The notes beneath the pieces were generated by a model. The model was not told where the DNA came from and ran no database searches. It was given only the letters and a program-made list of their open reading frames with translations. 64,000 nt of DNA from Diploscapter coronatus (lineage: Eukaryota; Nematoda; Chromadorea; Rhabditida; Rhabditidae): contig OZ038423.1 in NCBI GenBank assembly GCA_964036155.1, positions 79,499,249-79,563,248 on the forward strand, written 5' to 3'. Positions 54,494-63,057 of this stretch are shown here, piece after piece (position 1 is the stretch's first letter; each line of letters begins with the position of its first letter). Both the position numbers and the translations under genes were made by a program.

Positions 54494-56209
54494 TTTTCAG
54501 GTCTGAAATCAGGAAATTCGAAAAATGATCCATCGACATTTTAGCAAAAATCCAAGAAAAACAGCGTCCTAGAACATGTTCTACCGTTTTTGGTAAGTCA
54601 GGATATCAAGATTTTTCTCGAATTTCAATAAATCTGGAAAGAATGAGGAAAATAAAAAAGAATATGCAAGAAAATCAACGAACAAACACTCTGCCCAAGA
54701 CATCCCACTATCCGTACAACGACTGCGAATGTTTACAGTGTACTCTGCGTTTAGGCGCGTAGTTAAAAATCAATCAATGGCAAATAAAGGGAGGAAGAGG
54801 AGGGAGAATTTTGTTGTTTTCAATAACTTTTGGGGATTTTTCAAATTCCACAGGTTTATCGATTTATTGATCGGGTGCGAAAGAAGTCCGCAAATGTGCG
54901 TCAAATGCACACCAAATTACGAAAATGCTAATATTTCGAGTTATAAAAAAGGTACATTTAATTTTTTTTGATGAATCGGTACACCTAGTTGAAATGTACA
55001 ACATATGTAAAAATTAGAAAAATCCTGCGTAGAGCAAATTTTTTCGAGGCAATAATAGATGCTCGCCTTTGCGGTCCTGTATCTTGACAAAGGATCACTG
55101 AAATCGTCCGAAAACTTGACTAAAATAAAATTTGATACTCCCTAATTATGATATTCAAAAGAAAAAAAACGAAATTTTATCAGAAAATATTTTTAAAATT
55201 AATTTCAAAATGACCATTTTTTGTCTTTACTGAATTGGATCACCCTAGACATATTTTGAAAGGCACATATTTTTTTATTCCATATTTGGATTAGTTGGTC
55301 AATTTTCCGTCTTCAGTGAAAAAATCAGAAAAATCCTGCGTAGAGCAACTGAGATCTTGATAATTCGCGGAAATATAAAAGAAGCCAATGCTGAAATGGA
55401 GGAGAGTGCAGAGAAAAAGATCCCCAAAGGCAGGAAAAGAAGGGGGAGCGAGCGGCACAGTGTCTTTTGCAGATAAACCACGCCCCTTTCCCTTGTCCAC
55501 GAAAAGGAGCGATTTTTCGCGTTAAATTTTATCTTTTTTTTTTGTCAGTGACGTATTTTTTCGCGGTTTTTTTCGGTGAGGATGGTTAGAGGGGCACCTC
55601 AGCCCCTGAAAAATGTGGGAAGCATAGTGCCAGAGTGAATTTGGCAAAAGGACTGGCGGTCCCTAAATGTCGATAAAAATCGACCTTTGCATAAGTTTAA
55701 GATTGCTCAGCTTTACTTGTTCGATAGAGCTAGACAAGATGAGACATCGTTCTCCTCCTTTTTGCTCTCATTCTCACTCTCATTCTCACTTTTGCCTCGC
55801 TCTTCGCAATGATGACAGCAATGTTTTTTCTCTGAAAAGTTTTTAATCTTCGTTATCGATTTATATTCTTCAGCTTTATGTTTTATTTCACTTACATAAA
55901 ATTTTCCTTTTGTTCATAATAAAGGTTTAATTACCCAAGTTTGAGGTACTATCATCTTCTACTGCATACTCAAGTCTCTCACCCCCTAAACACCTACTAA
56001 CTGCACTATCTAACGGACGTTGGACTGATCACCCAGAGACGTTTTATTTACACTAAATAAATCTCTTACATTTTTACGATATCGCAAATAAACGCTTGAA
56101 AGTATGCTCTATTGATTGACCTTATACTGACGCTTGGAACGTTAACGAATATTTCTAATCTTCACATTTTTTATATTGTAATTTCGAAATTGATTGTTTT
56201 AGTTGAACG
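54494..56209. other. Divergent spacer NDUFS2 / F-box gene
   Basis: Contains two copies of AATCCTGCGTAGAGCAA (55021 and 55330), a pyrimidine-rich 'cattctcact' run at about 55765-55790, the perfect SL1 sequence at 55924-55945, and from about 56065 a 130-bp block that recurs downstream of the F-box gene. Confidence 0.5.
55924..55945 (+). other. Perfect genomic copy of the SL1 spliced-leader sequence, possible cis 5' exon
   Basis: All 22 nt of nematode SL1 are present (begins GGTTTAATTACCC, ends AAGTTTGAG) and are followed by GTACTA, so the natural SL1 donor GAG|GT is intact. What follows does not resemble SL RNA: no Sm site of the A(T)4-6GG type is seen within ~120 nt. The next good acceptor is at 56200 (ttttag|TTGAACGATG), directly before the F-box start codon, giving a potential 255-nt cis intron. 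Confidence 0.7.
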
Positions 56210-59200
56210 ATGCTGAAAAATTTCCCGACGGAAATTCTCGAGGAGGTTCTGCTCGACCTGCCGCTGAAGGAGCTGGTCAGAATGATGAAGACCAACAGCC
56301 GCATCTACAAAATCGCCAGCAACCCAAGGAGCCCGCTGCGCCACCGCTTCGAATGCAAGGACTTTTACGAGGTGAGTTAGGAGTTGGAGTTGAGATAGCT
56401 AGAGGCGAGAGTGAGCGGAGGCGTAAAACAGTTGTTCGAAACGCATTGTTTCAAAATTGTCGAAATTAAAACTCCATTTTTATGATCTTTTGAGATCGAA
56501 CATTTCAACGTATCTCCCTTTATTCAAAAATCTGTAGAAACCGCGAAGCCTCATTTCTAAACTCGTTTAATGCCGAACACTCGTACACTCCTGGATTGGG
56601 GGTTCATTTTGCTTTGCCGATTCGAATACGAAGACGAGCAAATCATTTATCAGCTCTTGGCCAAGTCCTTGTATAGGTGGATTATAAGAGAGAGAGAGAG
56701 AGAGATAGTGTGGGATTATTAATTATGCTAATTTACTCTCTAACTAGGTATACATCACCACTTTCGGGCCGACTCCTGGCAATGGGCACTCGCCTGACTG
56801 CACGAGCAAGGTGGGTGTTCGTCAATTTAATCAATTAGACCAAATTTCTCGTGACATGGTCATTTCGAAAATTCACCGCCGCACCATAGTCCTCGTCAAA
56901 ATTTATTGAACATTGATGTATGGGATAGGTGAGATTATGAGCGGAGCCAAGTAGGAAACCACTACAAAAACGATGATATTTTGGCATGGTGAGACTGCGA
57001 GTTTTCGGAATTACATTTACTTTTTAATATTCAATCTTTCAACATTGTTTTGGTAGATCAATTACAAATATCCATTTTCAGCGTATTGAGCGGGTTGAAG
57101 TCAAGATCTGTACTAAGACGACGGAGGGTTGGGCGGCGCTGGAACTCTACTTCTGGGACGCCTGCAGCTGTCGCCAGGAAACTGTCGACGCCATTTTCGA
57201 GCCAGCCAAGCTGAGCCCGGCCAGAATCGTCAAGTTCATGAAGGAGAAGGGTGAATCTATTATGGAAACAACGAAAAGATATCGGATCATCGGACAAGAA
57301 TAGTATAAGATAACCGCATTTTATTATGGACCCCCATACCTAGTCTCGACTTCAGCAACGTGTTCCTTGCATAGTTAAGCCAGATGCCATTTCGTAGCAT
57401 TTCTACTCCGTGCTATTTCGCAAATATTTTAGCCATTATGGTCGAATTTGTAAAATTTGAAAAATACAATGCTAAATTTGCGAATTTTAATATCTTTAGG
57501 AAATATGAATGAATATAAATATTTATTATGGGTCATCTGGAAAAGAAAAACTGAAAATGCATAAAAAAATACTGTTCACTCAACTAAATATAGTTAATTT
57601 AAATTAAAAGACAATTTATAGGCAATACGTGCGAACTGAAAGCCCGTGTGATGCACGATTCTCTCGACGCAGCCCTCCGCACTACCCACCTCTTCCTGCT
57701 CGAATTCTTCGCTTTCTTCAGGGCTTGTCGATCAGGCGTTGTAAGTGATTTGTTTTTCTATATATTACCCTTGCTCGAAATCTTTGCAACTGCAATATAT
57801 AATCATAACTGATTGCTCCCCACTCGGCGTGTATGCGTTTGTTTGTGTTTTTTTGTTGTCTTTCTATTATTCAAACGCATAAACGCCGGCAACACCTCCT
57901 TGTGGGCGGCGGTGTCAAGTGACAACGGTGAGGTCTAGGCAAGGGAAAATAGTTGCAGCTTTTACTCGGAAGTACCGTATTTTTTCTTCAATAGAGGAGG
58001 CCCTGGGCTTCTATTTTTCAAACCTCCAAAAATTTTCAAATCCGATATTTTCAAGTCCCACTTTTTGCGTTTTTAACAATCTAATCATTTCAAATTGAAT
58101 GTAAACGGACTAATTCGACTATTCTCTTTTATTTTAGCATGTTTCGAGTCAATTCAAGTTCAATAAAGAGTAATTCGGAATTTTGGGGGTAGGCTTGTAT
58201 TAAAGAAAATACTACGGTATTTCAGATGGTCAACGGCTGTCCTGAGATATTCTACAGGCTGTCGGGCCAGTTCGCGGCTGATGACTATCCAGCGCTCTTC
58301 GATTGGGGCCTCCTTGGTCTGTTCAATACGCCAAACTTCGATTCCGAGAGGTTCTTCTCGAGTTCATTCTTCAAGAATGGTTAGATCGATAAGAAAGTTT
58401 CAATTTCACATAGCAACTTTGCAAGAAAGCGCAACTGGTTGTTTACAATATCATTTTTACTAGTCTTTCGGAAAATAATGATAATGAAAACTTTTCTTTT
58501 TTTAAATCAATGAAAATGTTGTCAAATTGTTTAGTGGATGATTAATCGAGATTGCATGGGTTAGTGTGATTGCTATTTTGAAAAAAGTGTTCTAATCAAG
58601 TTTATGTTACCAAAAAGTGGAAAAAGGAAGAACTATGATTATTTTAGGCATCGATGCGATCGAATTCGTAAATCTTACGGATGAAAAGGTCATATCGATT
58701 CAGCCTCTTCTGCACAATTCATTGAAGAATGTAAGTCATTGAATCAAGTATTAAGTAGCTTGTGATTTGTATAGACTCCGCAGCCTTTTTTTGCATTTGC
58801 TAACTAAAATATTTTGCAACTTTTCGAATCATTGTCGATTTGGCTAAAGATGTTGTTACTATTTCGCAAAGTTATGCAGTCGCAAAATAGCGCTTCCGGA
58901 CGAATTACTGTCGACTTTGCAAATTAATATTTTTCACGGTCTCCAGAAATTAGTATCTTTTTCTTTTAATTTCACCAAAATTCATTAAACTTATATCAAG
59001 TATAAAAAATATATCAGTCGCACGCCTGCTAAACAAAATATTTTTTGCAACGGTTGGAATATTAAATTTTCACTAAATATTAATTAAGTAGTATGAGAAT
59101 CTGAAAATGTCTAAGAAATTTTTGTCAATATACTCTTACAACGCGAATGAAATAACTCATTTATTTGCAGCTTGACTCGCTATTAGTCGAAGGGAATCTG

Positions 59201-60470: not shown

Positions 60471-63057
60471 TTAATTTTATTTTATCGTTTGTTTTCTTTG
60501 TACCTCATCATTCATCAATGATTCATAAGTATTCATGACTATTTACGATTATCATTCTTTCATAATATCACCCTACTTTGCTCGTTCTATTTTTACCAGT
60601 TAAAGTCGACTAAATTCTGGCAAGTTACCAAAATTTGTCTCGGTGCAATCATGCGTCGAGCTGAACACGAGTTATTCAAAGTTTTTTTTTTTTTTAATTT
60701 CCATTTTTTACAGTATCCCAAAGTGAGCTCAGTTCTAGTGAAAATAAATATTTTATCGGTTTTAATCTAGCCAACAAGTATCTTTTGACACGTGTTAATG
60801 TTAATTTATTTTATGACATTGCGAATAAACATTTGAAATTGTGTTTATTAATTGGCCTCATGTCGACGTTTAAAATGTCTAACGAATATTTCTAATCTTC
60901 GCAATTTTATTGTAAACTTCAAAGGTGGCAATTGAATACTTGACTCTTGATGCGATAAATGACCCTAGTTCGGTAGCTGGATTCGCTTACGACATAACAT
61001 TTTCATATGCTTATATAATTAGCATTACACTCTCGGTATTTCTTTTATAATATGGATAAATTGCATATGACACATTCTTCGTAAAAATAGAATTTTTTTA
61101 TAGAGGGGGCGGTACCCAAAAAGTCTATGCTCAAATTTTCGAGCTGATTTTTTGTCCCTGGGAGTTTTGACTACGCTGATGACGAATTTGGCGGTTAAAA
61201 CTCGATCCGACCACTTGTTCCGCTTGTTCCGGAAGGTCCAGATACGATCGTGCCGAAAAATTCTATTTTCGTTATTCTGCATGGGAAAGATTCAAGTTTG
61301 GTATCAAAATGCTCGCAGAGACCAGCTGAGCACGATTCTGAAAAGATTTTGTCAGAATGACACCGAATAAGGAAGTTATGATGAACATAGCGAAATACAT
61401 GAAAAATGTCATATCGCTTTTTCGCTTTTTTGGAATTTTTTATTTTTTAAAAGCCCCAGGTTCCGTGAGTTATTTACACTGGGAAGTAGTCCAGGTCTTC
61501 TAGTTTCTGAAACATTTGACTGTTTTTCTATAAACTGCCCGTTAGCGGAGAAATTCCACTTCTTCGAAGAGCTGTCATGACTCACTTTTGCCTAGTTTGA
61601 TTTAAAAAATTCATATCTCCCTGTGTGTGCACATTCCAGAATAAGTTCTGGAACAAAAGTTGATCAACTCGAAGAGCTCTACAAGATTTCATGGGAAACT
61701 CCGGCGTTAACCCACATTACCCTTGTAAACACAGTACGGGTATACAGGATAAATTTGAGTAGCTCTTTCCCGCCAAAATTAACTTCTAAAAATGTTCTTT
61801 TTATTTTTACTTTACTCTCCTACTCAATATCTACAAAATAAAAAAATAATTACAAAACTTGTCTGGTACATAGGGAGATATGAATTTTTGAACATTTTCT
61901 TTCATAGAAATCATCCCGATTTTACACGTTCGGCAATTTATTTGACCCCAGGATCCCCCATCTTTCTCCACAAAATCTATATCCTTTTACGCGGAATCTA
62001 ATAGGCTTTCAAGTGAGATGATTTTCAACAGGCCTTTCTTCCTATCGATGGAGTCAAAATCACGAAAAGCTGAACAACATATGTGAAAAGCAGTCCGATT
62101 TTCAGACTCCTATTCATACCGACTTTGGTCCTTACTGATCTTCACTCTTAAATCAATAAAGGAAGGACATGACTCTAGTGCTGATAAGATGAATACTCAT
62201 TGATAGTTATTTCACAAGTGCAATTTTACACATCCTATCCATAAATTATCGGTTTATTTTTTTTTCTGGACACTTTCAAAATTTTTGTGTAATTTCACTG
62301 TATATAATTTTCATTTATTTATGATCGTCTTTGGCATTTTTTTGCAAAAATTAAAATCAAAGGCAAAATAGGTTGCTTTAGGACTATATAGTCCTAAGAT
62401 TAGGATAATTTCATTTATCAACTATTTTGATTGATAGAGTATAGCTTGACTGATAAAACTGCACTTTTCTCGCCCTTGCCTAGTTCTTTTCAGGAAATCT
62501 ATTTGCTCAATGTCTCATTGTGAATGTGCTAATATTTGAACGCAAGCAAGTCAGATCAAGAACTACTGTAGATCAGGAATGTATGCGGTCCGTAAAAATT
62601 GAAACCCGGACATTAATTAATCTCGGGGGTTCGGGTCCGTATATTCTTGCTGTAGACTGTTTTAGGGTATGAAGAAATGGGTTTACATGTACCCCCCTAA
62701 ACTATTTATCACTGATCATGTCTAAAATTGATGGTTTCATCTAAAAACTAGTTATCAGTCGATATTTTATGACTTCTCTTATGAATTCCATCTTATCGCT
62801 TAGCTCTGCTTATCTAATTTTAAAATACTTTATGGTTCGCGTCTATTTGTCGGGGAATTCGTAATATTGAAACTTTGAATACCATGAATTTCATTTATTA
62901 TTACAAAAAAAATTAATCAAAATGTTAGCCTTCTCGAAAGACAAATTCTTACTAACTAAATAAATCGATAATAACTGTATTTTGTAAAGAAAGTAACAAC
63001 CATCTTTCGATTTCAGGATGTTTATATGAATGCAATTTCAATATCTGAATCACTATA
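60471..63057. other. Intergenic region between F-box and GT14 genes
   Basis: Holds the duplicated flank (60800-60935). The stretch 61060-62120 has a distinct texture, with an inverted pair of ATTCATATCTCCCT (about 61609 and 61875), suggesting a decayed element. A rough hairpin lies at 62560-62660. No gene is seen. Confidence 0.45.
60800..60935 (+). repeat. Downstream duplicate of the F-box gene's 5' flank
   Basis: Resembles 56065-56195 over about 130 nt, sharing runs such as CTAACGAATATTTCTAATCTTC (20+ nt, one variable base) and GCGAATAAAC / GCAAATAAAC. The copy stops before any start codon or F-box coding sequence, and SL1 is absent. Confidence 0.6.

Follow-up and report, generated by a model that had tools for sequence, protein, structure and literature searches.

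The question raised by this locus is why a complete copy of the nematode spliced leader SL1 is encoded in front of an F-box gene in the genome of Diploscapter coronatus. In the 64,000-nucleotide stretch of DNA that was analyzed here (the window), the SL1 22-mer GGTTTAATTACCCAAGTTTGAG is found without any mismatch at 55924-55945 of the plus strand. This is the only SL1 match in the window even when up to three mismatches are allowed; a chance origin was considered and rejected, as 100 shuffles yielded no match at this threshold. A preliminary description of this DNA proposed that the leader serves as an ordinary first exon that is spliced in cis onto the F-box gene, with a decayed SL RNA gene or a retro-inserted mRNA 5' end as alternatives. 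What it had read directly from the sequence was found again: all 22 nucleotides are present, a GT follows immediately (at 55946), a TTTTAG acceptor lies ahead of the F-box ATG (56210; PF00646, 1.5e-06), and neither an Sm site nor an SL RNA body was seen by eye downstream of 55945 in comparison with the fetched SL1 RNA genes. An Rfam search of the window at gathering thresholds, run without a positive control, gave no hits.

The window SL1 is part of a 385-bp solo LTR, which is present on one of two homologous contigs (Table 1). D. coronatus is described as having a diploid 170-Mb genome with 2n=2 (PMC5483258). The window belongs to contig C2 of a three-contig, 169.7-Mb genome, in which two contigs measure 87.7 and 82.0 Mb. 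C1 and C2 are allelic at the F-box locus with 90% identity, and the C1 allele aligns on both sides of the insertion and lacks the LTR itself. Both the TG...CA ends of an LTR (here TGTCG...ACA) and a short target-site duplication (CTAAA) were found, together with the empty allele. There is no second LTR within the window, where only three other matches to LTR sequences exist, each of 23-29 bp.

Table 1. Features of the SL1-bearing solo LTR and of the F-box gene start in the window
Feature	Position	Strand	Basis or remark
Left target-site duplication CTAAA	55663..55667	+	Same as 56053-56057; single CTAAA at the empty site of allele L010
Solo LTR, 385 bp, TGTCG...TTTACA	55668..56052	+	Missing from the C1 allele
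Putative U3 (promoter part)	55668..55923	+	Location with respect to SL1; dispersed-repeat hits starting at 55700
TATA-like TACATAAA at -31 from SL1	55893..55900	+	Outside the regex used for the motif counts
AATAAA directly ahead of SL1 (-6)	55918..55923	+	Sequence
SL1 22-mer, predicted R region and transcription start	55924..55945	+	Motif positions, module break
Putative U5, starting with GTAC (possible splice donor)	55946..56052	+	U5-only search
Right target-site duplication CTAAA	56053..56057	+	Same as left copy
Splice acceptor AG (TTTTAG) ahead of F-box ATG	56201..56202	+	Kept on the LTR-free allele
First coding exon of the F-box gene (54 aa), then GTGAGT	56210..56371	+	PF00646, 1.5e-06

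The genome-wide count of SL1 with a comparison of flanks, which the preliminary description had suggested, gives 269 exact copies, with GT as the next two bases in 215; two classes were distinguished, SL RNA genes and a second class that is described below. The context of an SL1 RNA gene (CTTC-SL1-GTATT) occurs at 133 places, part of which were fetched. SL RNA genes were defined by TTC before SL1 and an Sm-like AATTTT[GA] site within 70 nt downstream, and the fetched set contains 22 distinct genes of this class. These genes (L026-L048 and the genome listing) often form divergent pairs with a spacing of about 245-350 bp. A base other than C precedes SL1 at 107 places, and the first 100 of these 107 were listed. 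Outside the SL RNA class, the 143 loci collected gave 97 distinct copies, and removal of three SL-RNA-like copies (L129 and, twice, L137) left 94, a subset of the non-SL-RNA class to which the window copy belongs. TGTCG is found upstream of SL1 in 66 of these 94 copies; in the other 28 it was not seen in the fetched flank of at most 300 nt. Of the 66 TGTCG copies, 34 have a CA/TA end followed by an exact 5-bp duplication, compared to a mean of 2.9 and a maximum of 8 with shuffled flanks. The duplication called by script for L084 was rejected as a chance match, its true duplication being at the distal end of a longer insertion; a few others among the 34 with unusual ends (e.g. L004, L090, and L142) may also be chance, considering the shuffled mean. 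An SL1 variant with GTTGAG was found at a single place only, and SL1 searches of viral_contigs and genome_contigs returned no stretch in either.

Two motifs suggest that SL1 lies where the R region of an LTR is expected to begin. A TATA-like motif starts at -36 to -29 from SL1 in 52 of 93 copies (mononucleotide shuffles: mean 13.7, max 26) and is missing from this interval in 41. AATAAA lies within the 13 nt before SL1 in 67 of 93 copies, all 67 beginning between -8 and -6 and 66 of them at -7 or -6 (shuffles: mean 0.5, max 4), and is missing from these 13 nt in 26. Transcription initiated on the first G of SL1, together with 3' cleavage in or just after SL1, would make the R region approximately SL1 itself; the start, the poly(A) site and R are all predicted from motifs. 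Many related elements in this genome seem to use the host mRNA leader as their replication repeat.

If SL1 is an R region that is common to many families, similarity between copies is expected to be kept within U3 and within U5 and to be nearly lost across SL1, and this is the pattern we find. Copies with short flanks were left out of the clustering and segment tests, so that 93 or 92 copies were used. At 85% identity, 93 copies form 53 U3 clusters and 49 U5 clusters. Of the 14 U5 clusters that have at least two members, 11 are combined with two or more U3 clusters; conversely, 10 U3 clusters occur with two or more U5 clusters. The correlation of pairwise identities in 92 copies is 0.37-0.58 among U3 segments, 0.33 in U5 and 0.03-0.10 across SL1, and both within-versus-across differences that were tested were retained in 200 of 200 bootstraps. 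The U3-U5 linkage is weak and above zero, with 8 of 500 Mantel permutations reaching the observed value. For the pairs tested in a set of 87 copies (without both entries of L084, the second LTR in two cases, and a duplicated locus) the values are 0.34-0.57 in U3, 0.31 in U5 and 0.02-0.08 across SL1; for the 32 of these copies with script-found duplications they are 0.55-0.59, 0.60 and 0.02-0.21, respectively. In the 87 copies, discordant pairs, defined by an identity of at least 0.88 in one segment and below 0.62 in the other, number 0-7 inside U3 or U5 versus 8-59 across SL1; in the 32 copies the numbers are 0-5 versus 0-18. A stricter cut leaves seven pairs with the same U5 and a different U3. 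At the strict cut, pairs with the same U3 and a different U5 among copies with script-found duplications all include L084; at a looser cut without L084 there are 0 to 12 such pairs, depending on the segment. DNA-level conversion or uneven decay could contribute to this shuffling.

A composite insertion, L084 (C2:21283000-21285300), carries two SL1 units. It is 1409 bp long, is flanked by the duplication ACGAG and is arranged as U3-SL1, 848 bp of unassigned sequence, and U3-SL1-U5, with different sequences after SL1 in the two units. The first 15 nt past SL1 in the 5' unit are common with the U5 of L121, which fits a second SL1 strand transfer onto the RNA of another family. Reverse transcription of a spliced RNA was also considered for L084, and a second strand transfer explains it equally well. 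The 848-bp interior matches none of the fetched sequences at the DNA level and has one weak 20-aa match (E 0.68), and its 203-aa frame matches no Pfam family. In another pair of loci, L082 and L083 (C2, 3.55 and 3.64 Mb), which are inverted duplicates, U3 and SL1 are common while U5 and the downstream flank are different, so that the duplication seems to stop at an SL1-LTR.

The type of element can be read from two full-length relatives, L080 and L081, which belong to a different LTR family than the window copy. Both measure about 9.1 kb from LTR to LTR, carry SL1 in both LTRs, have an LTR identity of 99.3% and contain a single frame of 2661 aa. L080 is a BEL/Pao element and has an envelope-like domain: its frame, searched in Pfam in five pieces, contains Peptidase_A17 (Pao; PF05380, 6.3e-35), rve (PF00665, 1.8e-09) and Phlebovirus_G2 (PF07245, 4.6e-71), as well as DUF1758, DUF1759, and Integrase_H2C2; Pfam reported no separate RT family in these cut pieces. 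In the primer site region, TGG begins directly after the 5' LTR of L080 and L081, and a search for the 20-mer complement of this putative primer site gave L080 and L081 only, with no tRNA gene match. In both LTRs of L080 (441-468 and 9290-9317) a second TTTGAG follows SL1. The LTR family of the window has no full-length copy here and no internal region linked to it, so the putative membership of the window copy in BEL/Pao rests on its LTR anatomy. By this anatomy, the window LTR probably derives from a BEL/Pao group that uses SL1 as its R region.

The mechanism that best fits these data, and that we regard as likely when taken as a whole, is that the window holds a solo LTR of BEL/Pao origin in which SL1 acts as R and mediates strand transfer, and which might be a promoter of the F-box gene. 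RNA polymerase II would initiate on the first G of SL1, which lies about 31 bp past the TATA-like element, and the 3' end of the transcript would be cleaved in or just past SL1, directed by the adjoining upstream AATAAA. The element RNA would then carry SL1 at both ends, and minus-strand strong-stop cDNA would transfer from the 5' to the 3' end via SL1. As SL1 is common to many families and to host trans-spliced mRNAs, such a transfer could combine the U5 and the U3 of different families. Finally, the solo LTR ahead of the F-box gene could act as an alternative promoter with SL1 as the first exon.

How well SL1 itself is conserved has to be judged from copies that were sampled in another way, since the main 94-copy set was collected by exact SL1 and SL1 conservation is not demonstrable from it. 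A search with the window U5 alone gives 10 places including the window, the other nine at 74-90% identity. Seven of these nine were used, leaving out one duplicate of L011 and one unfetched place. In this small sample of seven copies SL1 has 4 mismatches in 154 sites, versus a mean U5 divergence of 18.9% (P 7.8e-10, with sites taken as independent). A wider reading, which we offer tentatively and to which we give less than even weight, is that an envelope-bearing BEL/Pao group uses the host SL1 as R, that reverse-transcription exchange with trans-spliced RNAs keeps this R identical to the host leader, and that U3-SL1-U5 modules recombine freely.

Another option, which we consider doubtful, is that transcription starts further upstream and that SL1 is added by trans-splicing onto an AG at or inside an old SL1, and is then reverse-transcribed into both LTRs. 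The low divergence of SL1 relative to the neighbouring U5 in the seven copies fits such a process, and so do five exact places with NTTGAG after SL1 (four loci, one with both LTRs) and four further rows with one NTTGAG mismatch, in three of which the TTGAG tail is intact. The repeated TTTGAG in L080 is exactly the product that splicing onto the internal CCCAAG would give. However, tandem slippage gives the same 6-nt repeat, the exact TTTGAG repeat is present in only one of the four loci, and TTTGAG is a poor nematode splice acceptor. The TATA-like motif near -31 and the AATAAA at -7/-6 also suit initiation at SL1. A precedent from C. elegans points both ways, as Cer1 makes an SL1-trans-spliced subgenomic mRNA, but its 8-kb genomic RNA was not trans-spliced at that site (PMC3315495).

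A somewhat less probable option, and in our view an unlikely one as a full account of the locus, is the original proposal in its LTR form: the solo LTR is a host promoter and SL1 is a cis first exon that is joined through GAG|GT to the F-box acceptor. The LTR has the promoter anatomy for this, with GT and AG in place, and a like arrangement was described for a solo LTR in the flatworm Echinococcus (PMC4558846). The idea of an RNA that begins with SL1 and looks trans-spliced agrees with the LTR anatomy (a TATA-like element 31 bp upstream and GT after SL1), and cis splicing to the F-box acceptor is therefore possible. However, the allelic contig, which has no LTR here, retains both the first exon of the F-box gene and its acceptor, so TTTTAG is older than the insertion, and the insertion is confined to one haplotype. 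In addition, GT follows SL1 in only 48 of the 94 copies and is in the majority in 14 of 35 U5 clusters, so it is not constant and does not imply donor use. The F-box acceptor is probably an ordinary trans-splice site, and the LTR may provide the gene with a further promoter and a first exon that consists of SL1.

Near the allelic F-box gene on C1, a different SL1-bearing LTR copy is located about 560 bp upstream of the ATG (L010, ~1100; C1:85269506), and an SL1-LTR is therefore found near the F-box gene start on both haplotypes. Within the window, 60809-60908 is 77% similar to 56072-56171, upstream of the F-box ATG, perhaps ahead of a paralogue, and has no LTR match.

The two alternatives of the preliminary description fare worse. 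A retro-inserted 5' end, or an SL1-tagged retrocopy of a host trans-spliced mRNA like those of dinoflagellates, would place SL1 within a retro-derived unit, as is the case here, but it is very improbable, since LTR sequence flanks SL1 within one target duplication, SL1 sits at the predicted U3/R boundary, and neither an mRNA body nor poly(A) follows downstream. A decayed SL RNA gene, for which the exact SL1 followed by GT could speak, can practically be dismissed, as SL1 sits inside an LTR with defined boundaries and a target duplication, and the window copy has AATAAA and no Sm site where the fetched SL1 RNA genes have TTC before the leader and an AATTTT[GA]-type Sm site.

If SL1 is indeed R, a host mRNA leader was turned into the strand-transfer sequence of retrovirus-like elements, and the RNAs of these elements would gain a host-like 5' end. 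It would also be a recombination point common across families and a possible route to the capture of host messages: with the leader in common, unrelated element families could exchange ends with one another and, in principle, with any host mRNA that bears SL1. Solo LTRs would spread SL1-first promoters across the genome, perhaps including the F-box case. With SL1 encoded at a likely start site in dozens of LTR copies, an SL1-bearing read in such a genome would be no proof of trans-splicing.

BEL/Pao elements with a phlebovirus-type envelope are known from nematodes, namely Tas of Ascaris and the Cer7-like elements of C. elegans. L080 is alike in having Peptidase_A17, rve, Integrase_H2C2, DUF1758/1759, and Phlebovirus_G2 in one frame, and differs in that here SL1 is presumed to serve as R in many diverse LTR families. 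SL1 is said, in an old remark, to be present in the LTR of Tas; if this is right, SL1 as R may be an old trait of the clade and the novelty of our observation is smaller. Among the matches listed for CC-licensed PMC literature, including the topic of Tas, we recognised no description of SL1 within an LTR. Cer1, a Ty3/gypsy element of C. elegans, is likewise a nematode LTR element that encounters SL1 in its life cycle, yet there SL1 is joined in trans to a spliced mRNA and is absent from the 8-kb genomic RNA, and the excerpted account describes no SL1 in its LTR (PMC3315495). In Echinococcus, an ancestral trans-splice acceptor receives the transcript of a ta-TRIM solo LTR by cis splicing; the excerpted account mentions no leader within that LTR, and in the window such splicing would be a prediction (PMC4558846). 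The SL-tagged retrogenes of dinoflagellates likewise represent a DNA-encoded SL that arose via reverse transcription, but their tags mark host retrogenes, whereas here SL1 lies inside the LTR (PMC12014239).
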